37,813 nucleotides of DNA from Desulfobulbaceae bacterium (GTDB taxonomy: Bacteria; Desulfobacterota; Desulfobulbia; Desulfobulbales; Desulfocapsaceae), in assembly GCA_009773475.1 (NCBI GenBank), contig WSXV01000021.1, forward strand, positions 1-37,813. Direction: 5' to 3'. The notes under the pieces were generated by a model. The model worked only from the letters and a program-made list of their open reading frames with translations, did not search any database and was not told the DNA's origin. This document shows positions 23,884 to 29,803 of the stretch, piece after piece. How positions within the stretch are numbered: the stretch's first letter is position 1; each line of letters opens with the position of its first letter. Made by a program: the position numbers and the translations under genes.

Positions 23884-23884
23884 C
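23612..23884 (+). repeat. Two tandem units of a two-hairpin palindromic repeat
   Basis: CATTTCATGCTATC starts at 23631 and again at 23749, giving a 118-base period over two near-identical units. Each unit has hairpin 1 with arms around GAAACAGCCGGAA, a linker GCGGCATAAGGTGCCGTAA (23707-23725 and 23826-23844), then hairpin 2 (AAATGAGC pairing with GCTCATTT, loop of 10). The last hairpin is extended: GGTGCCGTAATAAAATGAGC (23835-23854) pairs at 18 of 20 positions with 23865-23884, ending exactly at the lpxA stop codon. A third, diverged copy is at 37385-37488. Confidence 0.9.
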
Positions 23885-24678
23885 TAATCATCGCTGCGTT
23901 TCGCAACTCCGCGTTTTGAATGTTCCAGGAAGTGAAGCAGATTCATCACCTCTGGACAATCGGCAAATTCCTGCCGCACCTGGGCATAAGCATCTGCCTG
24001 GAGCAGATCAGGGGAGCGAAATAGAATCCGAAAGGCCTGGTCAAGTTTACTGATGGTCTCTTTGCTGAAGCCATGCCGTTTAAGCCCGACCTTATTGATT
24101 CCCGAAACTCGCATCCGATCCCTGGTACCGGTGACAATCATATACGGGGCAACATCAAGACCAATCCCGGACATTCCACCGACATACGCATGCGTCCCGA
24201 TACGACAGAACTGATGGACACCCACCAATCCGCTGATCGTAGCATAAGAATCCACCTCGACATGACCGGCAAGGGTGGCAACATTGGCCATGATCACGTG
24301 ACAGCCGATATGGCAATCATGGCCGATATGGCAGTAAGCCATAAACAGATTATTATCCCCAATGATCGTCTTCCCCCCACCCTTAACCGTTCCCCGATGG
24401 ATAGAGGTATATTCGCGAATATGATTATGATCCCCGATCACCAGTTGCGTTGGCTCTCCAGCGTAACCAAGATCCTGGGGAGGAGTACCGATGGAAGTAA
24501 AAGAGCCAATCACATTGCCGGTACCGATGGTTGTGTGGCCCGCGACAACCGCATGCGGTTCAATGCGCGTTCCGGCTCCAATCCGAACCCCTTCCTCAAT
24601 AACGGAATACGCTCCCACATACACTGTGGAATCGAGCTCTGCCTTGGTATCAATAACTGCTGTTGGATGTATGGACAT
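23884..24678 (-). CDS. lpxA: UDP-N-acetylglucosamine acyltransferase LpxA
   Basis: LpxA adds the first acyl chain of lipid A. The 264-residue protein is mostly left-handed beta-helix hexapeptide repeats (IHPTAVID, VYVGAYSVI, IGAGTRIEP). It contains GTPPQDLGY, HIREYTSIHRGT, the catalytic histidine region YCHIGHDCHIG and a C-terminal helical part with KVGLKRHGFSKETI, all specific for LpxA over LpxD. Length is normal. A candidate promoter lies just upstream and an unusual structured repeat starts at the stop codon. Confidence 0.96.
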   Translation of the reverse strand: MSIHPTAVIDTKAELDSTVYVGAYSVIEEGVRIGAGTRIEPHAVVAGHTTIGTGNVIGSFTSIGTPPQDLGYAGEPTQLVIGDHNHIREYTSIHRGTVKGGGKTIIGDNNLFMAYCHIGHDCHIGCHVIMANVATLAGHVEVDSYATISGLVGVHQFCRIGTHAYVGGMSGIGLDVAPYMIVTGTRDRMRVSGINKVGLKRHGFSKETISKLDQAFRILFRSPDLLQADAYAQVRQEFADCPEVMNLLHFLEHSKRGVAKRSDD

Positions 24679-24747: not shown

Positions 24748-24785
24748 AAGGGCGGTTGCTCCCGCTCGGGGGAACAACCGCCCTT
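24748..24785 (-). terminator. Terminator after the mglB-mglA-scaffold genes
   Basis: AAGGGCGGTTG (24748-24758) pairs with CAACCGCCCTT (24775-24785), extended inward past one mismatch by TCCC and GGGA. On the minus strand it is followed by the moderately T-rich TGTTTATC. It lies 38 bases past the stop of the 792-codon gene. Confidence 0.7.
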
Positions 24786-24822: not shown

Positions 24823-27201
24823 CTACTTATCACCAAAAAAATCGGTCAAATCATTCATGATCCGAGATTCGGCGTCATTTGTCTCTTTACTTCCCTTTTC
24901 GGCCAGCACAGACAGAATCAAACCCTGTTGCCAGCACAAAACTCGGCCCATTTCAGCGAAAAGGATCTTTTCCTCCCCTTCCCTTGCCGGGGCTTTCCCC
25001 TGAAATACCAACTCAAGGGACTCTCCAAGCGATTGTAACAAGGCCAACGTTTCAGTATCAGCCCCAACGCGATCAATATACTGACACACGGTTACCAGAA
25101 GCTGAAGAAAACTCATCTTCACATACTGGGTCTGCCATATCTGGATCAGACTGTTTGCCTCATCTAAGAAAGCCGGGAAGTCCGTATAATATTTCTTCTC
25201 AAGCATGGAGGCAAGACATTCCCGAAACCTTGCCAGGAATTCCTGCTCTACAACCGATAGACCACCTGTCCCTAAAATCCTCTGTAAAACAGGGAGTTCG
25301 TCAACGTCAACATCATCACCAACAGGCTCAAAAACTACCCCCCGCCCAACATCCAGGACACCAGCCGAGACTTGAGCGCCAGCCTCTTCAACAATAAATT
25401 GAGCAACGCTGGAAGTTACACCCTGAACTTCTGCGAGCAATCCAGCATCGCTGCCACCCTCTGTTTTTATCCCGTATGACTCTTCTACTGCCAAGGGAGT
25501 TGATGAGGAGCGCACTTGCTCAAACGCTGTGGGATAAAGGTCTTCTACGACTGCCACACCTGGCGGCAAAGTATCCTCGTCTTCATCAATCTGAGCAGGA
25601 ACACCCTGCGAGGCCTCTTCAATTTCCGCACCAAAAAAAGAATCCAGTCGATCTTCAAGATCATAATCATCCCCATCGACGTCGTCGGCTAACTCTGTTT
25701 CGCGAAAACCATATCCTTCATCGCTGAACATCAAGGCCGGAGCGACCCAGCCTTGCTCTCGAGGAAGGGGCGCCTCTCCTGATTCATCATCGGCTTCCGT
25801 CTCCACATCAACACCGGGGATAACGGCTGCAGCCACGGCAGAAACAGTCTCGGCAAATTGCTGGTGAACATCTTCGCGCTCACCACCAGCCTCAGCCAGG
25901 GCCGGCGCCAACTTCCCACCTTCAAACAAAAGGGCCTTTTCACCGGAGTCATCATCAGCCTCCGTCTCCACATCAACCCCTTCCATGGCGATGTCAGATG
26001 CCACACCCGTCTGCCCGAATTGTTCCACCTCTCGATCATCTCCAAAGAGATCATCCAGTCTGGAAGCAACCTCGGAGCCCTCCGGCATCATCTCTGGTGA
26101 GACGGCCACTTCCTCGGCTACCGGCTCGACTACAACCTCATCTTCACCAAAGAAACTGGCTACGCGCTGATCAATATCGCTTTTGACCACCTCGGCATCC
26201 ACAGCAAATCCATGCACATCCTCAGGCATGTCAGCAAAGGCAGGAGTGACAACCCCTCCCTCTTCATACTCCTCTTCTTCCTCATCCGCCTCCACATGCA
26301 CTTCTCTGCCGGAAGCAACAGCTGTTGTGGCTTCAGCTGAAACCACAACAGCCGAGGCAACTGCGGAAATCACTGCCTTAAAAGCATTAAATTTACTCAC
26401 CTCGGCCAGTAAGATTTCCTTTTCCTTACCACTGGACAGATCCTCCACACAGATTCTCTCCAATCCCTCAAAAAAAGAATGAAGCAACTTAAAGGCGTCG
26501 GGATGGGCTTTGTCTTTTGTCGAACGGATATAACTGCCAAGGGCACCGATACCCTGAAGAAAGATCAATTTTGCCCTGTTCTCAGCAAAGTCTTTTTCCA
26601 GCCTGGCCACTTCTTCACCAAGACGAACCAGTTCTTTATCACTGATCTCCCAGTCAATACCAAGCACAATCGCTTTTAAGGGGGTGAGAACATTTTTTGT
26701 CTCTGGAGGGGGCGCGACTGGGACAGATTTTTTCTCTTGAGGAACGGAGGAGGTGATTTGCAGCTTAAATTGCTCAAACTTCTTTACATCCTGAAGCAAT
26801 AACTGTTTCTTTGTCTCGTCAGTCATTGAGGCGGAAGAAACTATTTTTTCCAGATCGTAATAAAAGGCAAGAAGCAGTTTGATCGCATTGGGATGGGCGT
26901 TGGCTTTTTCAGCACAGATATATTGACCGATCTTTTCCAGAGCCTGGATATAAACCAGGTTAATCTTGTTGCCGGCCCAGACATCTTTCAAGTCCTGCAG
27001 TTCATCGTTTAACTGATGCAGAATATCATCGGTAATCTCCCAATCTATCGACAAGATAATTGTCTTCAACTTGGCGATCGGCGCGTCGTCATCCCCGAGA
27101 GGTTCAAACAGGTCAACAAATTCGGTTGAAAACGACTCACTATACTCATCTGCACCAACGGTCAGATCATCGTCATATAGACGTCCAGTATGCTGTGCCA
27201 C
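24823..27201 (-). CDS. Large acidic protein with three helical repeats, partner of MglA/MglB-like proteins
   Basis: This 792-residue soluble protein has no name I can give. Two clear repeats of about 110 residues (41-150 and 171-280) share LKxIxLxIDWEI, a tryptophan or aromatic helix, a YI ending and AHPxAxKLL. A third, diverged copy occupies about 640-768 (IQIWQTQYVKMSFLQLLVTV then CQYID). Between copies two and three is a long acidic, probably disordered region. A short motif recurs: RVASFFGEDE (346-355), RLDDLFGDDR (381-390), RLDSFFGAEI (518-527) and NDLTDFFGDK (783-792, the very C terminus). A second repeat, GVDVETEADD-[DE]-SGE, occurs at 408 and 463. The start is GTG 27201, 12 bases after mglA stops. 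A scaffold or effector role is inference. Confidence 0.75.
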   Translation of the reverse strand: MAQHTGRLYDDDLTVGADEYSESFSTEFVDLFEPLGDDDAPIAKLKTIILSIDWEITDDILHQLNDELQDLKDVWAGNKINLVYIQALEKIGQYICAEKANAHPNAIKLLLAFYYDLEKIVSSASMTDETKKQLLLQDVKKFEQFKLQITSSVPQEKKSVPVAPPPETKNVLTPLKAIVLGIDWEISDKELVRLGEEVARLEKDFAENRAKLIFLQGIGALGSYIRSTKDKAHPDAFKLLHSFFEGLERICVEDLSSGKEKEILLAEVSKFNAFKAVISAVASAVVVSAEATTAVASGREVHVEADEEEEEYEEGGVVTPAFADMPEDVHGFAVDAEVVKSDIDQRVASFFGEDEVVVEPVAEEVAVSPEMMPEGSEVASRLDDLFGDDREVEQFGQTGVASDIAMEGVDVETEADDDSGEKALLFEGGKLAPALAEAGGEREDVHQQFAETVSAVAAAVIPGVDVETEADDESGEAPLPREQGWVAPALMFSDEGYGFRETELADDVDGDDYDLEDRLDSFFGAEIEEASQGVPAQIDEDEDTLPPGVAVVEDLYPTAFEQVRSSSTPLAVEESYGIKTEGGSDAGLLAEVQGVTSSVAQFIVEEAGAQVSAGVLDVGRGVVFEPVGDDVDVDELPVLQRILGTGGLSVVEQEFLARFRECLASMLEKKYYTDFPAFLDEANSLIQIWQTQYVKMSFLQLLVTVCQYIDRVGADTETLALLQSLGESLELVFQGKAPAREGEEKILFAEMGRVLCWQQGLILSVLAEKGSKETNDAESRIMNDLTDFFGDK

Positions 27202-27213
27202 CTTATATTCTCT

Positions 27214-27819
27214 CTAAAGTAGTTTTTTCTGTATTGAGACAACAGTTGAGGAGATGATCTTCTTCAACGTTGCGGCTACATTATATCCTGTGATGGCGCT
27301 TGCCTCGAAATAAGGCACCTGCAATCTGCTGTTCAAATCCTGCTGCAGAACAGAGATTGGCAGTACCGGAATTCCATGTTCCTTCAAATCCACTTTATTG
27401 TATTGCATCACCAACGGAATCTTGAAGATTGATTCCTTGTAGGACTGGAGATTTTCATGCAGCTGATTCAATGAACGAATATTTTTTTCGCGCTGCTTTT
27501 CCATGGCATCGGCGACAAAAACAATCCCATCAACTCCCTTGAGCACTAACTTTCTGGTTGCGTTATATTTTACCTGACCGGGAACAGTATACAGCTGTAT
27601 CTTGATGTCGTATCCTTTAATCTGGCCCATATTGAATGGAAGGAAGTCAAAAAAGAGGGTCCGGTCGCCATGGGTCTTCAAGCTCACCATTTCAGACTGG
27701 ATCTGGTCCCTGAATTTGCGATTGATATATTCAAGATTTGTGGTTTTCCCACAACGCCCTGGACCGTAATAAACAATTTTTACCTGGACCACCTTGTCTT
27801 TTAAGTTGATAAAACTCAA
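27214..27819 (-). CDS. mglA: MglA-like small Ras-family GTPase
   Basis: The 201-residue protein is MglA-like throughout: MSFIN at the start, P-loop GPGRCGKT (19-26), GDRTLFFDFLP with R53, TVPGQ (78-82) in which threonine replaces the usual aspartate, LVLKGVDGIVFVADA, and NKVD (141-144). R53, T78 and Q82 sit at the positions known to matter in the Myxococcus protein (recalled from the family). In Myxococcus MglA marks the leading cell pole and MglB is its GTPase-activating protein. The start is TTG 27819, supported by homology and a GGGGGTGG ribosome site. A roadblock gene precedes it and the 792-residue gene follows after 12 bases. An FNR-type site lies upstream. Confidence 0.93.
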   Translation of the reverse strand: MSFINLKDKVVQVKIVYYGPGRCGKTTNLEYINRKFRDQIQSEMVSLKTHGDRTLFFDFLPFNMGQIKGYDIKIQLYTVPGQVKYNATRKLVLKGVDGIVFVADAMEKQREKNIRSLNQLHENLQSYKESIFKIPLVMQYNKVDLKEHGIPVLPISVLQQDLNSRLQVPYFEASAITGYNVAATLKKIISSTVVSIQKKLL

Positions 27820-27848
27820 CCTGCCACCCCCAAACTATTTTTTCTTCT

Positions 27849-27887
27849 AGAATACATGGCTATTGAACACTCTTTGATCACGATCAA
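27849..27887 (-). promoter_or_regulatory. FNR/CRP-type operator and -10 box upstream of mglA
   Basis: TTGATCACGATCAA at 27874-27887 is a perfect match to the FNR pattern TTGAT-N4-ATCAA, extended by one base on each side (TTTGAT...ATCAAA). On the minus strand TATTCT (27849-27854) is a fair -10 box. With a start site near 27840 the palindrome centre falls about 40 bases upstream, the class II activator position. This would give mglA and the scaffold gene their own oxygen- or redox-responsive promoter, separate from mglB. Confidence 0.6.
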
Positions 27888-27919
27888 AACCCTGCAAACT
27901 CCCTGAACCTTGGGTTATA

Positions 27920-28321
27920 TTATTCCTGCCGTGCCCAAACCTTACGAATCTGGTCTATGGCCTCAACCACATTCAATCTGAGAAACCCCAAAGAAATGTC
28001 CTTTCCAAACATGGAAATCAAGAGAAGTTCATCGTCGATTTTACTGAAATGTATATTCGAATCTTGTCCTTTATGAAACAGCAGAGAGAATTCCGTCTCA
28101 CCGACTAATTTGGCCATGGCATCGACTGTCGCAAAGTTTCCTGCAGCTAAGGCGGCAAACGAATAAATATCATATTTATTCTTCCCATTATCTTTAACGG
28201 TAATGATATTTCCGGCCATATCAATAATGATAGCGCAATCAACCCCGAGCTTTACCAGCTTCTGGAATAAAATATCCTCAATCAGCTCAAGTTGCTCCTG
28301 ACTCACAATGCCATAATTCAT
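27920..28321 (-). CDS. mglB: Roadblock/LC7-domain protein, MglB-like
   Basis: The 133-residue protein is a single roadblock/LC7 domain: a first helix (EQLELIEDILFQKLVKLGVD), strands CAIIIDMAGNIITV, helix FAALAAGNFATVDAMAKLVG, strands EFSLLFHKGQDSNIHFSKI and LLLISMFG, and a last helix. This is the fold of MglB, the GTPase-activating dimer that acts on MglA. Adjacency to an MglA-like gene supports that role. A 100-base gap with an FNR-type site separates the two, so they may be separately regulated. AGAGG precedes the ATG by six bases. Confidence 0.87.
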   Translation of the reverse strand: MNYGIVSQEQLELIEDILFQKLVKLGVDCAIIIDMAGNIITVKDNGKNKYDIYSFAALAAGNFATVDAMAKLVGETEFSLLFHKGQDSNIHFSKIDDELLLISMFGKDISLGFLRLNVVEAIDQIRKVWARQE

Positions 28322-28933
28322 ATTTACCTCTGTATTCTTAATTGAAGCCCGCTGGAATCGGAACCTGCTTTTTCTTCAATCCACCACATGAGACGCGGGG
28401 GAATTGTTTTTACGAAACAGCTAGTAGTGCGCAACCCAATGCCGGTTTTAAGATTGCCTGAAGCGTTGACCATTCCTTGACAACGCAGTCAATCAACCCT
28501 GCCACTTTCGTTCTTTATGCAATGTATGAGGATATCACAACTCATGGACAGGTATCAACAATTTGACACCAAATAATGACATGCAATGAGTGTCACCTAT
28601 TTTTGTCTATACATGACAGTTTTTTTGAGATAAAGCTCTTTTTTTATTTATTATCAATATGTCCTGCTTCTAAGGATCAGAAAGAACAGTTCGCATGTCA
28701 AACTTATTGTTCAGGAGAGTCAGCGAAGGACAGGATGAAGTTCTGTATTGCACAACTCGTTCAATGGAAGAACCAGCAGTGGACAGTAAAGGCACCCCCT
28801 TTCCATAAACCTTCTGTCTGGGAAGAGATCCAAATGTAACAATCTGAGATGTTACACAATATTGGAAGCATAGCCCAGAATAAAAGAAAAATGCAACATT
28901 TTCTCTCTTAATTTTCCAACATTGCGACAAAAA
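28322..28933. other. 612-base divergent intergenic region between mglB and tatD
   Basis: The region is AT-rich and must hold divergent promoters. The clearest structure is the palindrome at 28835-28856. A plus-strand frame could encode 34 residues from ATG 28734 (MKFCIAQLVQWKNQQW and on, ending at 28838) with AAGGA upstream, but no family is recognised and I do not call it a gene. No tRNA or other RNA gene was seen. Confidence 0.45.
28835..28856. promoter_or_regulatory. Candidate operator palindrome upstream of tatD
   Basis: TGTAACA (28835-28841) and TGTTACA (28850-28856) form a perfect inverted repeat with an 8-base spacer, 78 bases before the tatD start. The 22-base span and symmetry are typical of a dimeric helix-turn-helix regulator site. 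The regulator is unknown. Confidence 0.4.
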
Positions 28934-29803
28934 ATGGCCACTGACAATGAGGGCCGCAAGGAAATTCATGTGATAAAGCAAAAAGCCCAGCTTCCACAGC
29001 TCACCGAGGACACCTTTCTCATCGACAGTCACTGTCATCTTGACATGGATGACTACGCTTGCGACCTGGAATTAATCCTTGAACGAGCCCGACAACACCA
29101 TATTCGGACGATCATCAGCATCGGCATTGACGAAAAAAGTTCCAGGCAGGCCATCGCCCTTGCCAGAAAATATCCCATGGTCAAGGCCACGGTGGGAATC
29201 CATCCGCACGATGTCACCAATATCGAGCCAAACACTTTGGATATTCTCGCAGGGCTTGTCGAAAACAATCGCGATCAGGTTGTCGGCTACGGCGAAATCG
29301 GCCTGGATTATGTCAAGAACTACGCCCCGCCTGATCTTCAACGCCGCTTTTTCCGTGCACAATTGAGCCTTGCCAAAGAGTTGGGATTGCCAGTCATCAT
29401 CCATGACCGTGAGGCCCATGCTGACACATTGAGCATCCTGCGTGAAGAAGCGCCGTTCAAACACGGAGGGGTTATGCATTGTTTTTCAGGCAACCTGGCC
29501 TTTGCTGGACAGGTTCTTGAGTTGGGGTTCCACCTCTCGATCCCCGGAGTTGTTACCTTCAAAAATGCTGCCGATCTCCAGGAAACAGCACGACTTGCTC
29601 CCCTGACCTCCTTGCTCCTTGAAACCGACGGCCCGTTTTTGTCTCCTGTACCTCGCCGCGGCAAGCGGAACGAACCGGCATTCCTGCTCTATACCGCCAG
29701 GATGATTGCTGAACTCCGGGGTATTTCCATTGATGAAGTCGCAAGACAGACCAGCGCCAACACCATGGCCCTCTTTCGACTCCCTGAAACTATAACACCA
29801 TAA
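28934..29803 (+). CDS. tatD: TatD-family metal-dependent hydrolase/DNase
   Basis: The 289-residue TIM-barrel protein carries the family motifs: DSHCHLD (metal site), GIHPHD, GEIGLDY, VIIHDREAH, MHCFSG and ETDGPFLSPVPRRGKRNEP. TatD/YcfH enzymes act as metal-dependent 3'-5' DNases in DNA repair and may have other hydrolytic roles. I place the start at ATG 28934; an upstream in-frame TTG at 28922 is less likely. The first 30 residues precede the usual family start and look poorly conserved. yggS follows after six bases, so the two form an operon. Confidence 0.93.
   Translation: MATDNEGRKEIHVIKQKAQLPQLTEDTFLIDSHCHLDMDDYACDLELILERARQHHIRTIISIGIDEKSSRQAIALARKYPMVKATVGIHPHDVTNIEPNTLDILAGLVENNRDQVVGYGEIGLDYVKNYAPPDLQRRFFRAQLSLAKELGLPVIIHDREAHADTLSILREEAPFKHGGVMHCFSGNLAFAGQVLELGFHLSIPGVVTFKNAADLQETARLAPLTSLLLETDGPFLSPVPRRGKRNEPAFLLYTARMIAELRGISIDEVARQTSANTMALFRLPETITP

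Follow-up and report, generated by a model that had tools for sequence, protein, structure and literature searches.

The 37,813-nucleotide contig WSXV01000021.1 of a Desulfobulbaceae bacterium (assembly GCA_009773475.1; the whole stretch is called the window below) carries three adjoining genes on its minus strand: mglB, mglA and a third gene for an acidic protein of 792 residues with an isoelectric point of 4.1. MglA and MglB form the model bacterial polarity switch. An open reading frame check of the window confirmed that the three genes run in one direction and that the third starts 12 bases after mglA (27202-27213), as the original prediction from the sequence had it. That prediction also placed a terminator at the end of the run. 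An imperfect inverted repeat does lie there; a consensus scan did not return it, and the promoter and terminator counts of that scan were not above those of shuffled sequences. The features are collected in Table 1.

Table 1. Features of the mglB-mglA-third gene locus, in window coordinates (aa, amino acids)
Feature	Position	Strand	Description
mglB	27920..28321	-	Roadblock/LC7 protein, 133 aa; presumed MglA GTPase-activating protein, judged from sequence; adjoins mglA in relatives
mglA	27214..27819	-	Ras-like GTPase, 201 aa, TTG start; P-loop, TVPGQ, Group 1 Asp-Arg-Thr arginine finger motif
Third gene	24823..27201	-	Acidic multi-domain protein, 792 aa, GTG start, 12 nucleotides past mglA
Domain copy 1 (aa 42-148)	26758..27078	-	Predicted five-helix bundle, CheA-P1-like; profile and model
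Domain copy 2 (aa 172-277)	26371..26688	-	Predicted helices as in copy 1; profile and model
Domain copy 3 (aa 656-760)	24922..25236	-	Divergent; profile match E 2e-28
Acidic linker, copies 2 to 3	25237..26370	-	Composition 25.5% D+E, 4% K+R
Short motif RVASFFG (aa 346-352)	26146..26166	-	
Short motif RLDDLFG (aa 381-387)	26041..26061	-	
Short motif RLDSFFG (aa 518-524)	25630..25650	-	
Imperfect GC-rich inverted repeat, possible terminator	24750..24783	-	Past third gene; read from sequence

A Group 1 MglA, an MglB and an acidic protein with a repeated domain

The first two genes proved to be what had been proposed. The GTPase matched Pfam Ras (E 3.6e-12) and the Myxococcus xanthus MglA structures (E 1e-52). 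Its P-loop residues, its TVPGQ signature and the triplet D52-R53-T54, which sets an arginine finger next to the G2 threonine, were invariant in all 34 MglA rows compared. Group 1 is defined by this arginine finger motif in the portion of PMC4316618 drawn on here. With Ras-type G motifs including TVPGQ and an intrinsic arginine finger, the window MglA is, by sequence, a Group 1 protein. The Roadblock protein matched PDB structures of MglB at E 4.8e-14 to 2e-7, the best value belonging to those of M. xanthus, though its family matches stayed below the cut-offs (Pfam Robl_LC7, 22.1 bits against 23; NCBIfam MglB, E 2.7e-13, under the cut-off of the model). On Roadblock fold and MglB similarity, both read from sequence, it is an MglB. 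We also looked for a C-terminal signature setting apart the MglA proteins of operons that carry the third gene; none was clear. Long C-terminal extensions occur on the MglA proteins of three other loci (322 to 427 residues; L119:4836-6119, L120:3835-4929 and L122:3863-4831), where no mglB match was found.

The third protein had been described as unlike known MglA partners, and the family scans bear this out. Nothing exceeded the cut-offs of Pfam or NCBIfam: the Pfam scan gave no TPR, Response_reg, Roadblock, CheW or LysM match, and the NCBIfam scan gave no family up to E 1. An "IDWEI repeat" noted earlier turned out to understate the case, since the protein holds three copies of an unnamed domain of about 107 residues (E 3e-43, 1e-40 and 2e-28 with a profile built partly from these copies). 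Identifying this domain with a known one was attempted by sequence searches of Pfam, NCBIfam and the PDB, which were unconvincing; the best PDB row was H-NS, at E 0.006.

Three short motifs of the form R-L-D-x-L/F-F-G lie in the protein outside the domains. The 27 rows classed as long, which include one short form with a spurious second domain match (L028), contain 42 occurrences of the motif beyond the domains. Shuffling the linkers 200 times gave 0.08 on average and never more than 2; because the long rows are related, the 42 do not count as independent. In Desulfosarcina and similar genomes the relatives are short forms of 202 to 348 residues with one domain. The motif recurs in 11 of the 15 rows classed as short, near the N-terminus, and the aligned short forms, inspected by eye, show no CheW domain and end in a short helix-like tail.

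Many database relatives carry the Joint Genome Institute source name "pilus assembly protein FimV", which together with the acidic linker raises the question of whether the third protein is a FimV-like polar hub. The NCBIfam scan, with no FimV model among its results, and the lack of a Pfam LysM match give no support to homology. We consider such a hub highly improbable: a homologous link to FimV is unlikely, and an analogous one is possible.

The genome of the window is 91% complete and has one MglA match and one third-gene match. It also encodes two PilT/PilU-type ATPases and PilM, and has genes that combine CheW with Hpt in a single reading frame, the arrangement of CheA. The genes flanking the operon (23884-24678 and 28922-29803) look by eye like lpxA, for an acyltransferase, and a gene for a TatD-type nuclease; since we take them to be these, the mglBA operon presumably sits amid housekeeping genes.

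Conservation of the operon across the phylum

We quantified how firmly the third gene is tied to mglA and mglB in two sets. The first was a scan of relatives with one genome per species, which gave 41 loci; the record titles (Desulfobulbaceae, Desulfocapsa, Desulfosarcina and similar names) we read as those of the phylum Desulfobacterota. With the window added, mglB lay upstream on the same strand in 42 of 42 loci and mglA in 40 of 42, once in pieces (L012). In the two remaining loci (L031 and L034) mglB is followed by the third gene with no mglA between them.

The second set comprised 247 genomes, all from the phylum of the window. At E<=1e-4 the domain profile found 56 genes in 53 of these genomes, and a same-strand mglA lay within 1.5 kb of 47 and within 8.5 kb of 50. 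The original prediction had named occurrence mostly without mglA as the outcome that would speak against it; what we found is the opposite. Six domain genes lie away from mglA, three of them in genomes with no MglA at 1e-40 (G171, G067 and G195) and three as second copies (G135, G145 and G240). Two of the former loci (L107 in G171 and L108 in G067) may reflect loss or an assembly gap. The second copy in G135 (L060:1243-1854) is a solitary domain joined to a region that falls just short of an AbiEi_4 match (24.4 bits against a cut-off of 25). A further ten domain matches with E-values of 0.001-0.01 were left outside the 56, and among these only that of G101 adjoins mglA. The search alignment has 87 rows, 28 of them from genomes of this sample; those genomes match by construction, and their gene neighbours do not.

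The same association was then read from the MglA side, using the best 126 MglA matches (down to E 3.8e-52) and all MglB matches except the two weakest. The subgroup closest to the window MglA was set at E<=1e-60, with one truncated MglA (G078:C567, E 4e-55) placed in it by hand. Within this subgroup, 51 of 71 genes have mglB within 600 bases, and the profile search placed the domain within 8.5 kb of 47 of these 51 mglBA operons. A third gene is present in the other four too (in G181, G217, G101 and G066), where it matches the profile less strongly (E 3.5e-6 to 3.6e-5, calculated against small local sets of open reading frames; the locus of G181, L101, is not in that profile). Thus the co-occurrence proposed earlier holds in 51 of 51 closest-subgroup operons, four by the weaker match. 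By comparison, the domain lay near 3 of the 20 closest-subgroup MglA genes without an adjacent mglB, and near none of the 37 mglB-bearing genes among the 55 distant MglA genes tabulated. Chance adjacency of the third gene and mglA is ruled out by the conservation of the operon across loci and sampled genomes.

A partner so tied to the mglB-mglA pair could be a regulator of the nucleotide state of MglA, either an exchange factor like RomR/RomX or an MglB partner like MglC, rather than an output scaffold. The domain is also missing beside the other 17 of the 20 MglA genes without adjacent mglB (some of them near contig ends), and L031 and L034 retain mglB and the third gene with no mglA between. 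On the other hand, the window protein has no Roadblock or receiver domain, and the PilB-type or pilM genes after the third gene and the CheW-like C-termini of relatives, described below, indicate a link to output or input. Overall, we judge a regulator of this kind to be unlikely.

Predicted fold, CheW ends and pilus genes

Three things go beyond the earlier account: the predicted fold of the domain, its CheW-bearing relatives and its linkage to pilus genes. Copies 1 and 2 were modelled and are predicted to form five-helix bundles. The five top structural matches were CheA P1-type (HPt) chains, aligned over nearly the whole domain, with Z under 13 and a Foldseek E of 0.48. An independent profile comparison gave a compatible register. 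The models predict that the domain folds like CheA P1 and that its helix 2 corresponds to the phospho-histidine helix. The position aligned to the phospho-histidine is mostly Glu or Gln, and His appears in at most 1 of 87 rows at any of positions 30-38 of helix 2 and in at most 6 of 87 elsewhere in that helix (position 25). The domain therefore likely lacks the phosphate-accepting histidine, and Pfam Hpt was not among the matches listed for the domain profile (25 of 84 matched families). The likeness to P1 could be a coincidence of helical bundles, the third protein then being an unrelated scaffold of the MglA operon. All five top rows being P1-type, the near whole-domain alignment, the compatible register and the CheW domains in relatives argue against this, and we regard it as rather unlikely.

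Divergent third proteins from other families of the phylum share an N-terminal motif with an invariant Asp and Phe (often I-D-x-L-F) and an L-x-W-E core (nine aligned). A CheW match exceeded the cut-off in 3 of 10 third proteins scanned (L071, L072 and L089), and in 4 of 9 divergent relatives in a second scan, L072 and L105 being one gene counted twice. PF01584 is recorded for 26 of 37 database matches. No kinase domain was found among the family members scanned. Because some relatives end in a CheW-like domain, the family looks like CheA without its kinase.

Pilus genes follow the third gene in many relatives. Among 52 loci that combine mglA with the third gene, a PilB-type ATPase gene lies downstream on the same strand in 15 and pilM in 10; 27 have neither in the stretch covered. 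L190 repeats L110, and the count excludes L107-L109, which lack mglA, and L112, which lacks the third gene; some of the stretches are cut off by the end of the contig, G134 was covered only at short length, and a weak PilB-type match in L177 (3.2e-19) was left uncounted. In 13 of the 52 loci the start of the PilB-type gene is no more than 60 bases from the third gene. It is the next gene after the third in L103, L106, L110, L111, L127, L129, L130, L189, L197-L199, L204 and L205. For the PilB-type proteins, the top NCBIfam model was PilB in 7 of 7, under its cut-off, and T2SSE and MshEN domains were present in 4 of 4 scanned. Three of these four also bear an N-terminal TPR (L127, L129 and L130; none in L103). 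The pilM gene exceeded the cut-off in 3 of 3 scanned, and several loci have a pilQ-like gene as well. In the relatives scan, three of the 16 short-form loci have a PilB-type match downstream (L030, L035 and L039). Whole-genome presence of PilM was useless as a discriminator, 236 of the 247 genomes matching.

Genes for receiver plus DUF4388 proteins immediately precede mglB in L104, L105, L182 and L184-L187 (confirmed by Pfam in L104 and L105), and seven of the short-form loci have a receiver/DUF4388 match in the stretch covered (L027, L028, L030, L032, L035, L039 and L042). The L104 protein (L104:8181-9533) also has a Roadblock domain, and is possibly an input like RomR and MglB; its counterpart is L105:5700-6398. 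In the long-form lineage of the window (L002-L026), the stretches covered, of at most 6 kb, showed no PilB-type, pilM or receiver/DUF4388 gene.

These receiver genes, the CheW-like domain in part of the family and the P1-like fold predicted by the models would also suit a purely chemosensory adaptor, a kinase-less CheA sitting on a receptor array and sharing the mglBA operon without touching MglA. Such an adaptor is hard to reconcile with the window form and the aligned short forms, where no CheW was found (in the latter by eye) and the operon order is still kept. We hold it to be decidedly improbable.

A proposed adaptor and its known counterparts

Taken together, we think it reasonably probable that the third protein, with three domains predicted to be CheA-P1-like and likely lacking the phospho-histidine, is a dedicated scaffold or adaptor from the MglA/MglB switch to type IV pili. 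The effector or scaffold role originally suggested from the short gap is plausible on sequence grounds and is strengthened by the pilus genes in the operons of relatives. The TPR on the PilB-type protein of some relatives, with the pseudo-HPt gene placed between mglA and it, points to a scaffold or adaptor. By analogy with the TPR protein SgmX of Myxococcus, the PilB-type protein might itself be an MglA effector. A fused-chain AlphaFold model of MglA and the third protein allows no inference on contact, because its MglA part came out unmodelled; the 50 rows listed in the fold search of this model were all MglA and other small GTPases.

We infer from these data that the third protein may bind and connect the switch, the pilus machine and an input of chemosensory or receiver type, and may in this way affect polarity and pilus output. 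MglB would set the GTP state of MglA, as is established in M. xanthus. The pseudo-HPt domains, taking no phosphate, would be docking sites for MglA, MglB or a protein with a receiver domain, and the acidic linker, through its repeated RLDxLFG/FFG motifs, would bring several partners together at one pole. As output, the pilus ATPase PilB or the PilM-PilQ complex, whose genes share the operon in relatives, would be positioned or activated. A third protein with a CheW-like end may also connect the switch with a chemosensory array, in the manner of a CheA minus its kinase. The simplest account is a degenerate CheA-type part, made of the P1-like domain and a linker, with a CheW-like end in some lineages and no kinase. 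A bolder version, which we offer tentatively and rate somewhat below even, is that a CheA stripped of kinase and phosphate chemistry now serves a Ras-like GTPase as its built-in output arm: the pseudo-HPt protein would join MglA directly to PilB/PilM and, in some lineages, through the CheW end to the chemosensory array, and in the lineage of the window its three pseudo-HPt domains and repeated RLDxFFG motifs would make it a multivalent polar hub.

Among the papers listed in a literature search, mostly open ones, no title or abstract opening describes the third gene. Within the literature searched, the known part of the operon is the MglA/MglB module, and both the third component and the pseudo-HPt reading appear undescribed. 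Because the operon keeps this partner in much of the phylum, often beside pilB-type genes or pilM, the route from a Ras-like GTPase to a pilus motor is short and open to test. If the pseudo-HPt reading is true, it would also show how a two-component part can be put to new use without phosphate, wiring chemosensory input to a GTPase.

Among known systems, CheA shares the P1-like predicted domain and, in some relatives, the CheW-like C-terminal domain; it differs in that the third family has no conserved histidine and its members scanned have no kinase domain. FimL of Pseudomonas aeruginosa, as described in the part of PMC3019171 used here, has two HPt-like domains with Gln in place of His and controls type IV pili. 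The third protein, with three domains predicted to be HPt-like (two of them modelled) and likely lacking the His, resembles FimL in this and in a likely link to type IV pili. The sequence of FimL is like the N-terminus of ChpA, and that part of the source mentions no MglA operon or acidic linker. SgmX is presented in the excerpted text of PMC7668184 as a TPR effector of MglA-GTP for pili in M. xanthus. The resemblance lies in the proposed role, from MglA-GTP to pilus activation, whereas the TPR is absent from the window protein and in relatives sits on the neighbouring PilB-type protein (3 of 4 scanned). RomR differs by its receiver domain, no Response_reg match being found in the window protein. 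The actinobacterial conservon (CvnA-D), as outlined in the portion of PMC4316618 drawn on above, likewise groups MglA- and MglB-type genes in an operon with partner genes; there CvnA is a histidine kinase, and here no kinase domain was found. According to that same portion, the neighbourhoods of Group 1, 4 and 5 MglA proteins vary widely, with PATAN genes only occasional; apart from these PATAN genes it lists no third gene as conserved with Group 1, and it has downstream MglA partners known mainly from Myxococcus and encoded away from mglA. The closest counterpart in M. xanthus, the Group 1 pair MglA/MglB, shares the Ras-like GTPase with its arginine finger and TVPGQ and an mglB adjoining mglA; the difference is that here a third gene is fixed in the operon.

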